Assembly (NCBI GenBank): GCA_020346965.1 | Contig: CP070793.1 | Span: 1,523,338 to 1,530,589 of the forward strand | Reading direction: 5' to 3' | From: Chloroflexota bacterium | GTDB lineage: Bacteria; Chloroflexota; Dehalococcoidia; GIF9; AB-539-J10 | DNA: 7,252 nt | The notes under the pieces: model-generated | Database searches by the model: none | Told to the model about the DNA's origin: nothing | Seen by the model: the letters and a program-made list of their open reading frames with translations, nothing else | In this document: positions 267 to 5,250 of the stretch, piece by piece | Layout: every line of letters begins with the position of its first letter | Numbering within the stretch: the first letter of the stretch is position 1 | Made by a program: the position numbers and the translations under genes

Positions 267-290
267 GAGTAAAGCTAGCTGGCTTTACTC
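267..290 (-). terminator. Perfect 9-bp hairpin over the marR stop codon, weak terminator candidate
   Basis: GAGTAAAGC (267-275) and GCTTTACTC (282-290) form a perfect 9-bp inverted repeat with a 6-nt loop that contains part of the TAG stop codon. It lies where a terminator for the regulator gene would be expected, between it and the rRNA promoter. No T-run follows on either strand, so an intrinsic terminator is not proven. It may instead protect the 3' end of the mRNA. The rest of the gap from 126 to 266 shows no gene. Confidence 0.35.
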
Positions 291-877
291 TGAAGCCTCT
301 TCCTTTTACCACTCCCACGCTTGGCTTTGGAAGTGGATGACGGATCGTACTTGGCTGCTTGCTCCTTAAATCGTTTCATTCTCACGATGTCATCTACACT
401 TACTTCCTCTGTGGCTCCTCCAGGCTCGAGATAATCATATGTTTTGTCTCTAATCGTCTCGAGCAGTTTGATCAGGGTACGCTTATCCTCGTTCGATAAC
501 GGTGACAGGATTTCCTCGACGAGATCCCAGCCTGCTTTGGTTGCCGGCACATATGCTTCCTCCGCCTTGTTGGTCAGAGTCACAAATACTGTCCTGCGGT
601 CCTTCCTGTCTCTTGTCCTTCGAACCAGGCCAGCCTTGACCATACGGTCGATTATCATACTGACACTGTTCACGCTACGGTCCAACCACTTCGCTATATC
701 AGTGATTCTTACAGGCCCACTGATGTTCTTTATAGCCATAAGCACCGTGTGCTGCTCCGTAGTGAGGTCATATTCACTAAATACCCGGTCTTCACACCTG
801 AAAATCAGGTTGTAGGCTTGACGCAGCAGTATCCACGCTCCCTTATCCACATTCTCAAATTTGAACTTTATAGCCAT
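275..877 (-). CDS. MarR-family winged helix-turn-helix transcriptional regulator
   Basis: A 200-residue cytoplasmic DNA-binding protein. The core (about residues 38-108) has the MarR winged-helix pattern. It runs from LTTEQHTVLMAI, through the recognition-helix region ITDIAKWLDRSVNSVSMIIDRM, to KAGLVRRT. It closes with the wing motif DRKDRR (residues 90-95) and VTLT. The flanking helices would form the dimer interface. The family usually has about 140-160 residues; this one has a C-terminal extension from about residue 150, ending in a lysine/arginine-rich tail (about 184-198) that may add nonspecific nucleic-acid contacts. The start is supported by GAGGAG about 8 nt upstream of the ATG. It has its own promoter 55-83 nt upstream, overlapped by an inverted repeat that suggests autoregulation. 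The ligand and targets cannot be told from sequence. It lies between the pan operon and the 23S gene with no obvious link to either. Confidence 0.9.
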   Translation of the reverse strand: MAIKFKFENVDKGAWILLRQAYNLIFRCEDRVFSEYDLTTEQHTVLMAIKNISGPVRITDIAKWLDRSVNSVSMIIDRMVKAGLVRRTRDRKDRRTVFVTLTNKAEEAYVPATKAGWDLVEEILSPLSNEDKRTLIKLLETIRDKTYDYLEPGGATEEVSVDDIVRMKRFKEQAAKYDPSSTSKAKRGSGKRKRLQSKAS

Positions 878-1886: not shown

Positions 1887-2723
1887 CTAGCTTTCAGCTC
1901 TTAGCCGTTTGATGAGGTCTTCATCCATGGTGAAGCTGTGTTCCATAGTGGGGAAACTAACAGACTTAACTTCAGATATGTAACTGGAGACAGCAGCTTT
2001 TATTTCTCCGGCCAACCTGGCATATTGCTTGGCATGCCTGGGCACAAAGTCGGTGTAAAGCCCCAACATATCGCTGATTACCTGGACTTGACCATCACAA
2101 TCTGGACCGGCACCGATACCAATCGTGGGGATAGTCAGCTTTTGAGTAATTAGTTTGGAAAGAGGTGCTGGAGTGCATTCCAGTACGATAGCAAAGGCAC
2201 CAGCTTCCTCCAGAATACGGGCATCGCTGAGCAAGTTTCTGGCTTCCTCTATTACCTTGCCCCTGGCCTTAAATCCGCCCAGTTGATGCTGCGATTGTGG
2301 GGTTACGCCAATATGCCCCATTACCGGGATACCGCAGTCGACAAGTCGTCTGACTTGCTCAGCAACAACGTCGCCGCCCTCCAGCTTCACCGCCTGCGCA
2401 CCCCCTTCCTGAATGAACCTTGCGGCGTTATGTAAAGCATCGGAGACACTGCCATGATACGTCATAAAAGGCATATCTCCTACTATCAGGGCCTTATTGG
2501 CTCCTTTCACTACCGCTTTGGTATGATGAATCATCTCCTCCACAGTTACCGGGATAGTAGACTCATAACCCAACATCACCATTCCCAGGCTATCTCCAAC
2601 CAATATCAAGGGAACGCCAGCTTCATCAACCATCTTGGCTGTTACATAGTCATAAGCGGTAAGCATTGGTATCTTCTCTTTCTTCTGCTTCATCTCCTTT
2701 ATATCGTTAATAGTAATCCGCAT
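1887..2723 (-). CDS. panB: 3-methyl-2-oxobutanoate hydroxymethyltransferase (ketopantoate hydroxymethyltransferase)
   Basis: It transfers a one-carbon unit from methylenetetrahydrofolate to 2-oxoisovalerate to give ketopantoate, the committed step of the pantoate branch. The 278 residues are typical for this TIM-barrel, metal-dependent enzyme. Visible signatures are TAYDY near the N terminus, VGDSLGMVMLGYEST (42-56) with the metal-binding Asp, GDMPFMTYHGS (82-92), AVKLEGG (111-117) and GHIGVTPQ (136-143). Catalytic Glu182 is in LECTP, and IGIGAGPDCDGQV spans 201-213. It begins 46 nt after panD behind a modest GAGAGGG ribosome site and is followed 4 nt later by panC. Confidence 0.98.
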   Translation of the reverse strand: MRITINDIKEMKQKKEKIPMLTAYDYVTAKMVDEAGVPLILVGDSLGMVMLGYESTIPVTVEEMIHHTKAVVKGANKALIVGDMPFMTYHGSVSDALHNAARFIQEGGAQAVKLEGGDVVAEQVRRLVDCGIPVMGHIGVTPQSQHQLGGFKARGKVIEEARNLLSDARILEEAGAFAIVLECTPAPLSKLITQKLTIPTIGIGAGPDCDGQVQVISDMLGLYTDFVPRHAKQYARLAGEIKAAVSSYISEVKSVSFPTMEHSFTMDEDLIKRLRAES

Positions 2724-2769: not shown

Positions 2770-3237
2770 TCACCCGGGGTTTTGGACCTTGATATTGCTT
2801 AGTATTTCGTACTCCGTGTTTGAGATATTCTCTTTTTCCCCTCCACTGATTGCTCCACTCCGCCATTCATTGATATGAGTTGCAGACGAAGACTCAGTGA
2901 TCCTGTTTTGACTGTCCACACGGACTATGTACGGGGTTATGTTGATTGCCTCGTCATCAGGAACCTGACAATAAGAGAGGATGAGGACTATGTCTCCCTT
3001 TGCCACCAGTCTGGCGGCAGCACCATTGATACCGATAATTCCCGAATTGGCCATACCTTCGATAGCATAAGTGCTGAACCTGGCCCCATTATTAATGTTC
3101 AATACCTCCACCCTTTCGAAGGGTAAGATATCACTGGCTTCCATAAGAGCTCTGTCGATAGTAATACTGCCTTCGTAATCTAAATCAACCTGCGTAACCC
3201 GAGCCCGGTGGATTTTGCTTTTCATCATAGTTCTCAT
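2770..3237 (-). CDS. panD: Aspartate 1-decarboxylase precursor, with long C-terminal tail
   Basis: It decarboxylates L-aspartate to beta-alanine, the second substrate of PanC. The enzyme is made as a proenzyme and cuts itself before a serine that becomes the pyruvoyl cofactor. Here the cleavage site is YEGS, between Gly23 and Ser24, giving a 23-residue beta chain and a long alpha chain. Arg53 and Tyr57 in GARFSTYA and the NGAAAR segment (71-76) match the active-site and fold positions of the E. coli enzyme. The first ATG is chosen because AGGAG lies about 7 nt upstream and [11 protein letters not shown] aligns with the E. coli start. At 155 residues it is about 25-40 longer than most PanD proteins. 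The surplus is a polar, Ser/Asn/Glu-rich tail from about residue 114 of unknown role. Confidence 0.96.
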
Positions 3238-3251
3238 TCTCTATCTCCTTT

Positions 3252-4115
3252 CTACTTTCTTAAATAAAGTAAGGCTTTCATCTCTTCTGCCTTCTGTTTA
3301 CTTACCTTGCCTTTAGCTAAAGCAATAGGAATAGTCTGAAGCCCCAGCTCCTTGTAGGTAGTGAGCAAGGCGGGCCTCCTCGCCTCAAGAGCGCTCAAGT
3401 GTCTCTCTATAGTACCTGAATCCCCACGGGCAACAGGACCTGTGAGGCAGTCCGGTAAACCAATATTGTCAATATTGTTTATCGTTCCCTCAAGCAAAGG
3501 CAGCAAAGCCCTGGTCGCCTCCTTTGACGATACTCCAAGATTTTGCCACAGGTCCAGAGCGAGCTTAACCAAGGTCACCAGATAGTTACAGGCGAAAACG
3601 GCTGCCGCATGATACAGCACCTTGTCCCCCGGCCTAAGCACGACCCAGTTGCCGTTCAGGAGGTGAGTCAACTCCTTCTGCCTTGTTAATAAGGGCTCGT
3701 CAGCTTCCAGTGCGAAGGTAGAGCCAGGTAAATTCTGTATAGCCTGGTCAACATCGGCAAAAGTCTGCAACGGGTGAAAAGAGCCGACAGCAGCCCCAAG
3801 CTTTTTTGCCGATTCCAGGATATCGACTGAATGAGCGCCGCTGCAGTGCACGACACTCTTTCCCCCACGCCACTGAATTTCACTGCATACGTGCGTTATA
3901 ACATCGTCAGGAGTGGTGATGAAGACTAGCTCAGCAGCCTCTGCCACATCCTGAGCCGTATGGCAAACCCGACAATCGGGCACCAGTGCAGCCAGTTTCT
4001 GTGCCGACGACAAGGTTCGACTGGATACAGCTACCACCGGGCATCCTTTCTGATAAAGCCTCACCGCCAGGGCAGTGCCCGTCTTTCCAGCGCCAATGAA
4101 GCCTGTCTTTAACAT
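3252..4115 (-). CDS. Rossmann-like/DUF2520 NADP-binding protein, candidate ketopantoate reductase
   Basis: A 287-residue cytoplasmic protein with an N-terminal dinucleotide-binding domain and an all-helical DUF2520 domain, as in the 6-phosphogluconate dehydrogenase superfamily. The glycine motif GFIGAGKTGTALA is at residues 5-17, with SSR at 31-33 at the end of strand 2, where Arg could hold the NADPH 2'-phosphate. Family-typical blocks follow: VVHCSGAHS (88-96), GSFHPLQTF (111-119), YHAAAVFACNYL (168-179) and LTGPVARGD (224-232). The ATG overlaps the stop of the upstream hydrolase by 7 nt (ATGTTAA), with AAGGA upstream. panD follows after 14 nt. Placement beside panD-panB-panC, with no panE in the window, suggests it reduces ketopantoate to pantoate. 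I recall a Francisella enzyme, PanG, described as a PanE-unrelated ketopantoate reductase; membership of that group is inferred. Confidence 0.88.
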   Translation of the reverse strand: MLKTGFIGAGKTGTALAVRLYQKGCPVVAVSSRTLSSAQKLAALVPDCRVCHTAQDVAEAAELVFITTPDDVITHVCSEIQWRGGKSVVHCSGAHSVDILESAKKLGAAVGSFHPLQTFADVDQAIQNLPGSTFALEADEPLLTRQKELTHLLNGNWVVLRPGDKVLYHAAAVFACNYLVTLVKLALDLWQNLGVSSKEATRALLPLLEGTINNIDNIGLPDCLTGPVARGDSGTIERHLSALEARRPALLTTYKELGLQTIPIALAKGKVSKQKAEEMKALLYLRK

Positions 4116-5074
4116 CTGATTACATCCTTAGCTGCCGGCAAACCAGCCAAAGTCTCCGCCTTTCGAATTGCTCTTATGATGGCTTCCGCGACAACCTCAG
4201 CAGCCACTGCCCCCAGAGCAATAATATCAGCTTCTTTGTCATCACCGATGGAAACAGCGAATAAAGCATCTCCATCGTACATGGTATGGCATGGGTCGAT
4301 AGTTCGAGCAATACCGGCCTGAGCCACGTGGGCCAATTTGCTTCCCTGAGTTTTACTGAGTTTGGCATCAGTAGCCACTACACCGATTACGGTATTGAAG
4401 GGCGGAATTGATTCTTTGAGTTGGCTTTTCAATAACTCGGATGTCGACAAGAATCCGCTTTCGTCAGATTTGCGAGGTCCCGCCAGAATTGTACCAGTAC
4501 CGGGTTCAATCACATCGCCAACGGCATTCACCACCATGAGGGCGGCTACCACAACATCTCCGGCTATTTTCTGACTGGCAGTCCCCAGACCGCTCTTGAC
4601 CGCGTTCTCCATGCCGAGAACCTTGCCCACCGTTGCTCCCGTACCAGCGCCAACACATCCTTCAGCCACCTCGCTATCAGTGGCAGCCAGGCAAGCTTGA
4701 TAGCCCTCGCTAGCTCCTGGCCTGATTCTGGAGTCACCTATATTCAAGTCGAAAATAATGGCGGCAGGCACAATTGGCACCCTCCCGGCGGTAGTCTCAT
4801 AACCAAATCCTCGCTCCTCCAAATACCGCATAACTCCGGCAGCAGCATCAAGACCAAAGGCACTGCCTCCGCCGAGAACGATAGCTTGAACTGTATCCAC
4901 CGAATTACCCGGTCGGAGCAGGTCTGTCTCCCTAGTTCCCGGGGATGAGCCACTGACATCAACTCCGGCAACAGCCCCTGGCTCACAAAGTATGACTGTA
5001 CAACCGGTCGCCGCCTTTCTATCGGTATAATGCCCGACTTTGACTCCCGAAACGTCCGTTATAGCGTCATACAT
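4109..5074 (-). CDS. P1-family (S58) N-terminal-nucleophile hydrolase, DmpA/NylC-like
   Basis: A 321-residue member of the P1 peptidase family, which includes beta-aminopeptidases (DmpA, BapA) and the nylon-oligomer hydrolase NylC. These are made as one chain and cut themselves to expose an N-terminal Ser or Thr nucleophile. Family blocks seen are ITDVSGVKVGH (5-15), GSSPGTRETDLL (42-53), LGGGSAFGLDAAAGVMRYLEE (67-87) and VPIVPAAIIFDL (99-110). The predicted cut is Asn227-Thr228 in FNTVIGVVATDA, the NylC-type Asn-Thr pair rather than the Gly-Ser of DmpA, giving chains of about 227 and 94 residues. DGDALFAVS (267-275) is the conserved C-terminal block. No signal peptide is seen, so it is probably cytoplasmic. 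It is the first gene of the pan operon and lies just behind a terminator-bearing leader. No good ribosome site is seen at its ATG, but the N terminus fits the family. The substrate is unknown; a beta-alanyl amide is a context-based guess. Confidence 0.93.
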   Translation of the reverse strand: MYDAITDVSGVKVGHYTDRKAATGCTVILCEPGAVAGVDVSGSSPGTRETDLLRPGNSVDTVQAIVLGGGSAFGLDAAAGVMRYLEERGFGYETTAGRVPIVPAAIIFDLNIGDSRIRPGASEGYQACLAATDSEVAEGCVGAGTGATVGKVLGMENAVKSGLGTASQKIAGDVVVAALMVVNAVGDVIEPGTGTILAGPRKSDESGFLSTSELLKSQLKESIPPFNTVIGVVATDAKLSKTQGSKLAHVAQAGIARTIDPCHTMYDGDALFAVSIGDDKEADIIALGAVAAEVVAEAIIRAIRKAETLAGLPAAKDVIRC

Positions 5075-5215
5075 AACCAGAAACTAAAAAACCCTCCCGG
5101 CATAACCGAGAGGTTCATTGCTATGAACGCTATTGTCCGTCTCGGTCAGTACCGATCCAAGCGGACTTTTTGTCTATCTAGTCCACTAGCTCACTGCCTC
5201 AAGGGTCAATGGCTA
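5075..5215 (-). ncRNA. Structured attenuator leader of the pan operon (candidate riboswitch or 'pan' motif RNA)
   Basis: A leader of about 140 nt with several competing helices. In transcript order, helix A is AGTGGACT (5187-5180) with AGTCCGCT (5167-5160). Helix B is a two-part hairpin with outer stem GTCCG (5166-5162)/CGGAC (5139-5135) and inner stem TCGGT (5155-5151)/ACCGA (5146-5142). Helix C is GTTCAT (5128-5123)/ATGAAC (5118-5113). The terminator comes last. TGACCGAGA (5148-5140) can also pair with TCTCGGTTA (5111-5103), a 9-bp helix with one wobble that would break both helix B and the terminator, making an antiterminator. Helices A and B also exclude each other. No long leader-peptide reading frame or T-box signature is evident. 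A 'pan' RNA motif has been described upstream of pantothenate genes, including in Chloroflexi. I cannot confirm membership from memory of its consensus. Confidence 0.68.
5086..5113 (-). terminator. Intrinsic terminator just upstream of the pan-operon start codon (attenuator)
   Basis: On the minus strand CCTCTCGG (5113-5106) pairs with CCGGGAGG (5100-5093) as an 8-bp stem with one G-U pair and the 5-nt loop TTATG. One G and then six T residues (5091-5086) follow. This is a complete intrinsic terminator. It ends 11 nt before the ATG of the P1-family gene and lies downstream of that gene's own promoter. It must therefore act on the pan transcript itself rather than only on DUF1385 read-through. 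Its 5' arm can pair alternatively with an upstream segment. Confidence 0.88.
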
Positions 5216-5221
5216 TTCTAT

Positions 5222-5250
5222 ATGATAGCAAATTCCTAGTCCTCTGTCAA
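5222..5250 (-). promoter_or_regulatory. Promoter of the P1 hydrolase-DUF2520-panDBC operon
   Basis: On the minus strand TTGACA (5250-5245; 6 of 6) and TATCAT (5227-5222; 5 of 6) are 17 bp apart, with TGC before the -10 box as an extended -10 element. The predicted start is near 5215. The -35 box begins 9 nt after the DUF1385 stop codon, so the pan operon has its own promoter even though it follows DUF1385 on the same strand. Confidence 0.85.

Follow-up and report, generated by a model that had tools for sequence, protein, structure and literature searches.

The 7,252-nt stretch of Chloroflexota DNA analysed here (the window) carries an operon for pantothenate biosynthesis behind a structured leader, and raises the question of how that leader might control the operon and to what signal it might respond. 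A first-pass annotation of the window had placed the leader before a longer pantothenate operon with a hydrolase gene in first position, and this agrees with the genes that we find, all on the minus strand: an S58 peptidase family (DmpA-like) hydrolase (4109-5074; PF03576, 180.5 bits), a DUF2520 Rossmann-fold oxidoreductase (3252-4115), panD for aspartate 1-decarboxylase (2770-3237), panB for ketopantoate hydroxymethyltransferase (1887-2723) and panC for pantoate-beta-alanine ligase (1049-1882), the last three scoring above the cut-offs of TIGR00223, TIGR00222 and TIGR00018, respectively. A gene for a MarR-family regulator (275-877, minus strand) lies downstream and is of uncertain operon membership; a relative is found behind panC in 5 of 79 related loci (L089, L133, L137, L138 and L141). 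Upstream of the leader are a DUF1385 gene and, as judged by eye, genes for ribosomal proteins.

The same annotation had guessed that the leader might represent the pan motif, and a search of the minus strand with the Rfam covariance model bears this out: a full-length match to RF01749 (model positions 1-92) occupies 5133-5214 with 44.3 bits against a gathering cut-off of 36.2 (E 2.3e-5). The promoter that had been claimed ahead of the leader is recognizable as TTGACA-17-TATCAT (5250-5222, minus strand), a predicted sigma-70 site with 11 of 12 matches and a TG ahead of the -10 element; it lies 7 nt from the pan motif, and the predicted transcription start (+1) falls at about the start of the motif. 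Equally, the complete intrinsic terminator that had been described as ending 11 nt ahead of the first start codon is present by its sequence pattern (5086-5113, minus strand), with a 9-bp stem (5113-5093), a G and a U tract (T6, 5091-5086); it follows the pan motif after a spacer of 19 nt, and its T run is separated by 11 nt from the ATG at 5074. The window leader (5214-5087) has a better predicted fold than all of 200 dinucleotide shuffles (z -3.53). Another Rfam match in the window, to AAC_AAD_leader inside panB (2294-2380, minus strand), reached 22.2 bits against a cut-off of 56 and was judged to be due to chance.

The pan paragraph of Weinberg et al. (2010; PMC2864571) describes a stem with two bulged As, mostly in tandem, before pan genes, and gives Chloroflexi as one of three taxa that carry it. 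The window leader is built likewise, with tandem hairpins at 5214-5188 and 5164-5137, two bulged As in each stem, and a position upstream of an operon with panB, panC and the aspartate decarboxylase gene. From the Rfam match and the alignment, hairpin 1 (5188-5214, minus strand) consists of 3 bp, bulged A5191, 5 bp, bulged A5206 and 2 bp, and is joined by a poorly conserved linker (5165-5187) to hairpin 2 (5137-5164), which consists of CCG/CGG, bulged A5140, CTTGG/CCGAG, bulged A5156 and TC/GA (pairs 5164-5162/5139-5137, 5161-5157/5145-5141 and 5155-5154/5147-5146).

How this motif might communicate with the terminator was examined in an alignment of 12 leaders, the window and 11 relatives picked for closeness, all of which show TTGACA with a 17-nt spacer. 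The first-pass annotation had proposed a chain of mutually exclusive helices, and its central element, a 9-bp pairing of 5111-5103 with 5148-5140, is present (with one G-U pair) and complete in 9 of the 12 leaders, the other 3 having 8 of the 9 pairs. Its 5' strand, TGACCGAGA (5140-5148, minus strand), lies inside hairpin 2 and has the bulged A as its last base; its 3' strand, TCTCGGTTA (5103-5111), overlaps the terminator 5' arm and loop. The remaining helices fared differently. The proposed inner hairpin (5155-5151/5146-5142) is complete in 3 of the 12 leaders and appears to have been mispaired, the Rfam-type hairpin 2 being complete in 12 of 12. The 5-bp outer stem (5166-5162/5139-5135) does exist in the window and is complete in 2 of the 12 leaders, partly owing to an alignment gap. 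The proposed 8-bp competitor (5187-5180/5167-5160) can form in the window, pairs in 70% of alignment cells and is complete in no other of the 12 aligned leaders, or in L139 as well if read by eye with alignment gaps ignored. The first pan hairpin (5214-5188), complete in 8 of the 12 leaders, was missing from that list of helices, and the terminator is complete in 10. When the aligned leaders were examined for covariation, the competitor and inner hairpin, which pair in 75.3% of cells, scored no better (0.084) than two slid versions of themselves (0.083 and 0.097). Hairpin 2 is invariant in these 12 close leaders and shows no covariation among them; the pan and terminator pairs together form in 98.3% of cells with hardly any two-sided change, so that the close set says little on covariation. 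The terminator and antiterminator links of the chain are supported by comparison, but its last link, with a competitor that is not conserved, is wrong, and comparison points to pan hairpin 2 itself as the anti-antiterminator. The free-energy minimum of the whole isolated window leader does combine the terminator with the competitor and inner hairpin, without pan hairpin 2, so that the earlier reading was a fair one from a single sequence; comparison overrules it.

Among the loci closest to the window, which are mostly from Dehalococcoidia, ten were scanned with Rfam models, and the 7 closest carry pan, the other 3 being without it at the curated threshold; all of the 8 closest genomes carry it. 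Within the class, 75 of 294 genomes have a match at E <=0.001 and 51 of 294 a match above the cut-off. The Dehalococcoidia set used below comprises 76 places from this class search and 3 from the closest genomes, i.e. 79 loci, or 80 leaders with the window; a wider-phylum sample of 301 genomes gave 13 matches, 11 of them already in the class set. An additional set of 120 leaders is mostly from Bacillota (to which we assign the phylum of genome G302) and contains 116 of 125 places detected in 116 of 299 genomes of that phylum, the nine places left out being eight below the cut-off and the one of G302 itself, together with 2 of 3 matches from another search and 2 from the wider-phylum sample.

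The order of promoter, pan motif and terminator is common to the Dehalococcoidia leaders. Promoter matches of at least 9 of 12 occur within 60 nt upstream of pan in 71 of 79 leaders (one of the 80 lies too close to a contig end), as compared to 7 of 79 base-shuffled stretches. By a strict finder, a terminator follows pan in 70 of the 80 leaders, window included, and in 111 of the 120 leaders of the mostly Bacillota set. Among the ten Dehalococcoidia leaders that lack a strict terminator, L109, L110 and L113 do have the hairpin, but its T tract is poor, and the remaining seven lack one; five of the latter (L064, L066, L079, L083 and L102) have an ATG <=6 nt behind the motif, which suggests that control is translational there. 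Hairpin 1 has at least 8 of its 10 pairs in 76 of the 80 Dehalococcoidia leaders and in 113 of the 120 of the other set, with many alternatives among the base pairs, the best-fitting hairpin having been chosen without a chance control. Hairpin 2 has all 10 pairs in 73 of the 74 Dehalococcoidia leaders that could be anchored, 6 of the 80 and 25 of the 120 in the other set being unanchored; these counts require A at the bulge positions, wholly or partly, and are therefore not independent proof of the bulges. The linker between the hairpins ranges from 8 to 42 nt in the Dehalococcoidia and from 10 to 75 nt in the 120-leader set.

The gene families sought behind pan came from a fixed list, and PanB, PanC or PanD was found behind 74 of the 79 class loci; L068, L113 and L135 are cut short and have DUF2520 and/or S58 alone, and L097 and L106 have none of these. 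A DUF2520 gene occurs behind pan in 69 of the 80 class-set leaders and in 80 of the 120 of the other set, and a search of 16 pan-bearing class-set genomes, some of them drafts, for the ketopantoate reductase domain PF08546 came up empty in 15; together these results make the DUF2520 protein a candidate ketopantoate reductase. The S58 gene is the first sought gene in 24 of the 80 class-set leaders and lies behind pan in 0 of 120 leaders of the other set. In sequence, its product is close to a nylon-66 hydrolase of solved structure (E 1.8e-67), to an L-aminopeptidase/D-esterase and to ThnT (E ~1e-48); as ThnT is a pantetheine hydrolase, the S58 gene may specify a pantetheine amidohydrolase that recovers pantothenate.

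In the larger sets, sequence comparison indicates that the 9-bp antiterminator is a conserved feature of these leaders. The 3' strand of hairpin 2 reads CCGAGACGG in 68 of 80 Dehalococcoidia leaders, and the consensus of the terminator 5' arm, CC(T/C)TCT(C/T)GG, pairs with it at 8 of 9 positions. The arm imitates hairpin 2's own 5' strand, but it also pairs the bulged A: the base facing that A is T in 62 of 63 best-matching windows with at least 7 of 9 positions paired. At least 8 of 9 positions are paired in 41 of 70 leaders versus 8 of 374 background terminators (other terminators of the same Dehalococcoidia loci), and the leader's own pan core hexamer, mostly CCGAGA, is fully paired by the terminator arm in 46 of 70, as compared to 6 of 374 background terminators for CCGAGA; in the remaining 24 of 70, one or more of the six core pairs are lacking. 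The window itself scores 7 of 9 in this fixed-register measure, but extension on the loop side gives 9 contiguous pairs. A register-free test of complementarity was weak in the Dehalococcoidia, with helices of at least 6 bp in 45 of 70 leaders versus 39% of 2800 background pairings. In the 120-leader set, 44 of 111 leaders have helices of at least 7 bp, as against 6.5% of 6660 background pairings, and 67 of 111 have helices of at least 6 bp, as against 23.5%; the register is either that of the Dehalococcoidia or one shifted to the pan tail (CGGAAGG paired with CCTTYCG). When terminator arms were swapped among leaders, the pairing energy of the own arms was reached in 0 of 5000 permutations for the Bacillota set (n=89) and in 8 of 5000 for the Dehalococcoidia (n=47); for the longest helix the corresponding figures were 5 of 5000 and 1686 of 5000, own and swapped arms of the Dehalococcoidia not being separated by this measure because hairpin 2 barely varies there. 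The permutation sets were dereplicated, and in all of the pairing tests kinship was handled by dereplication alone. At pan position -6, scorable in 74 of the 111 leaders, a pan A is faced in the terminator by T in 9 cases, A in 4 and C in 1, and a pan G by C in 35, T in 15, A in 5 and G in 5; the C/T cells give a Fisher p of 0.0007 with kinship ignored. An asymmetry of changes between the two terminator arms was set aside as confounded by G-U geometry.

The window leader thus joins an intrinsic terminator to a conserved alternative pairing of the terminator arm that excludes it, and the direction of the predicted switch can be drawn from the strands that are held in common. Because the antiterminator is built with the 3' strand of hairpin 2, pan folding and read-through would exclude each other, as expected for an OFF attenuator; and because it also occupies one arm of the terminator, termination would be permitted once hairpin 2 is folded. 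The predicted transcript would start at the foot of hairpin 1. In the ON state, the terminator 5' arm would be engaged by hairpin 2's 3' strand, conserved bulged A included, and the terminator would be excluded; in the OFF state, hairpin 2 would be folded, the arm free, and the terminator able to form. A recogniser of the tandem bulged-A hairpins would keep hairpin 2 in its folded form while the end product is abundant, and the sensor might be either the RNA, binding a metabolite directly, or a metabolite-sensing protein. The nascent window leader is predicted to be most stable with the antiterminator formed (-35.9 kcal/mol, or -30.1 when the terminator arm is barred from pairing). The geometry is seen in the leaders, and the behaviour that we infer from it is read-through by default, with a switch to OFF upon stabilization of hairpin 2. 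On balance we think it probable, from the leaders and the genes behind them, that the pan motif works here in a transcription attenuator which switches the pantothenate operon OFF in response to CoA or a late precursor formed after the pantothenate kinase step.

The choice of signal draws on the regulon, which among the 200 leaders extends to PanT-like ECF transporters, type II and III pantothenate kinases and coaBC. The first sought gene in the 120-leader set is DUF2520 in 80 cases, PanB in 13, PanC in 9, a PanT-like ECF protein in 5, BirA in 4, a PanS-like protein in 4, PanD in 2, BioY in 1, OPT in 1 and none in 1. In 12 of the 120 leaders none of the four pan biosynthesis families is found in the stretch covered (1068 bases for L270), and 11 of these 12, all above the Rfam cut-off, have a PanT-like ECF protein, BioY, OPT, CoaX and/or a type II kinase instead (L182, L189, L209, L239, L245, L261, L265, L270, L282, L288 and L291), the twelfth being L180, with a small protein described below. 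Twelve of the 120 leaders have CoaX on the same strand within ~4 kb downstream (contiguity not assumed), and in the class set L106 has coaX and then coaBC behind a pan motif of 32.8 bits, below the Rfam cut-off. Among ten proteins compared to family models, two CoaX proteins, the type II kinase and CoaBC scored above a cut-off of NCBI models, the PanS-like protein fell below its cut-off (298 vs 400 bits), and the ECF proteins matched general ECF models only; "PanT-like" is our own label, and the family models do not state pantothenate as the substrate. In 12 genomes with such targets, several of them drafts, CoaX is found in 12 of 12, the PanC family was not found in 8 of 12, and neither PanB nor PanC in 4 of 12, among them G533, which is represented by a 2.31-Mb contig of a 2.3-Mb genome. 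PF00485 was tried as a marker of type I pantothenate kinase and was not discriminating.

The presence of pan before transporters, kinases and coaBC, also in genomes without a PanB or PanC match, would point to CoA or a late precursor as the signal, and the regulon favours such a post-kinase signal over pantoate: a shutdown of uptake, synthesis, kinase and CoaBC makes sense if the regulator reads the end of the path. This argument assumes that the PanT-like proteins carry pantothenate and that the target genes form one operon, and there are few kinase and transporter targets (11 of 120, of which 4 lack a terminator, plus L106). The passages on these enzymes in a 2025 review (PMC12570885) report CoA feedback for the type I pantothenate kinase only, types II and III lacking it, so that control of the genes for the latter types by pan would fill a gap.

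Some of the loci in these sets have features of their own. Two targets do not fit the CoA pathway. One is L097 (G060), a second pan motif of 33.5 bits (below the cut-off) whose terminator arm pairs with the motif and behind which lie a molybdopterin oxidoreductase gene (no model shown above its cut-off) and, further on and by eye, thiolase-like genes; the other is L180 (G308), that genome's second pan motif, before the gene for a 78-residue protein with several cysteines. In L261, L265 and L288, PanT-like ECF genes lie directly behind pan without a terminator, hairpin 2 abuts a GGGAGG ribosome site, and the reading frame seems by eye to start with ATT or ATA rather than ATG; it is possible that this non-AUG start is tied to pan control. 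In the mostly Bacillota set, BirA is found behind pan in 29 of 120 leaders and BioY-like genes in 13 of 120 (contiguity not assumed), and biotin and CoA supply may be co-regulated.

Several other explanations deserve to be weighed against these observations. The terminator might be constitutive, with effects at the level of translation, and its pairing with pan a by-product of common descent; the near-invariance of the hairpin 2 core strand in Dehalococcoidia, where the pairing can hardly covary, and the lack of significance of the longest-helix permutation test in that class are what such an account would lead one to expect. Yet the terminator arm has not diverged as loops and linkers have, background terminators seldom pair with pan (6/374, and in the other set 6.5% for helices of >=7 bp), and in the Bacillota set the pairing is found again, in two registers and with some covariation; we regard this account as very improbable. 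An attenuator could also be a riboswitch for pantothenate or pantoate, the first-named candidates of the first-pass annotation, that gives feedback on synthesis. Most targets are indeed synthesis genes (PanB behind 79, PanC behind 100, PanD behind 97 and DUF2520 behind 80 of the 120 leaders), and the PanS-like transporter that is the first sought gene in four leaders would suit such a signal. The kinase, coaBC and ECF transporter targets do not, nor do the four pan-bearing genomes of 12, G533 included, without a PanB or PanC family match, and a kinase that is shut off by its own substrate would be poor logic; we regard this possibility as unlikely, pantothenate being less disfavoured than pantoate. 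The first-pass description of the leader as a ligand-sensing riboswitch is supported by comparison in its terminator/antiterminator control, but its ligand part is a candidate only.

The sensor itself might be a protein, and an account in which the pan hairpins are bound by a dimeric, PyrR-like protein whose signal is CoA or a metabolite of the pathway, the RNA binding no metabolite, is one to which we would give slightly less than an even chance. It differs from our preferred reading in the sensor alone, sharing its attenuator and regulon argument; CoA-pathway genes dominate the pan regulon, and a CoA-sensing protein would give the same pattern. Two similar small bulged-A hairpins with linkers of 8-75 nt look more like two copies of a protein site than like one aptamer pocket, and the discoverers of pan suggested a protein sensor from its simple structure and dimeric arrangement (PMC2864571). 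The pyr attenuators controlled by PyrR offer a likeness in logic, with a conserved hairpin that acts as anti-antiterminator, read-through by default and termination when the product is plentiful, although the pan sequence is unrelated to theirs. To our knowledge no protein is known for pan, and direct riboswitches made of small hairpins in tandem do exist, one such being guanidine-II (mini-ykkC), which resembles pan in its small similar hairpins and variable linker but has its conserved features in the loops, rather than in bulged As of the stem, and precedes different genes. A direct riboswitch for CoA, 4'-phosphopantetheine or dephospho-CoA, in which the two bulged-A hairpins bind the ligand, lock hairpin 2 and turn off the uptake, synthesis and phosphorylation of vitamin B5, seems to us conceivable, if rather unlikely. 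The crcB and pfl riboswitch candidates, in the parts of the 2010 study that describe them, likewise have terminators that overlap the conserved motif, but their ligands are expected to raise expression, whereas the pan geometry predicts a lowering.

The window leader, then, belongs to a known motif whose common switch and wider regulon we have not met in the open-licence literature. In the full texts of that literature, a scope outside of which the 2010 supplementary files fall, we found no signal, ligand or mechanism for pan. The pan paragraph of PMC2864571 names panB, panC or aspartate decarboxylase operons and no switching mechanism; beyond that paragraph, the present analysis adds the antiterminator pairing, the predicted OFF sign and the kinase, transporter and coaBC targets. 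Three RNA-seq papers (PMC5670726, PMC4342826 and PMC4634765) go no further, in their passages on pan, than to list the motif, ahead of panB operons in the first two, and the words "riboswitch" and "leader" do not occur in PMC11487621 and PMC12570885. The relevant parts of PMC10393543 and PMC6593275 give riboswitches for other vitamins and none for pantothenate, and CoA is named as a conspicuous gap among riboswitch ligands in passages of PMC9971707 and PMC10043782. If pan should prove to be a direct riboswitch for CoA or one of its late precursors, it would provide a feedback loop for genomes with CoA-insensitive type II or III pantothenate kinases. Together, the conserved switch geometry with its predicted sign and the targets that would place the signal after the kinase step would narrow the question of what pan senses to a short list of metabolites.
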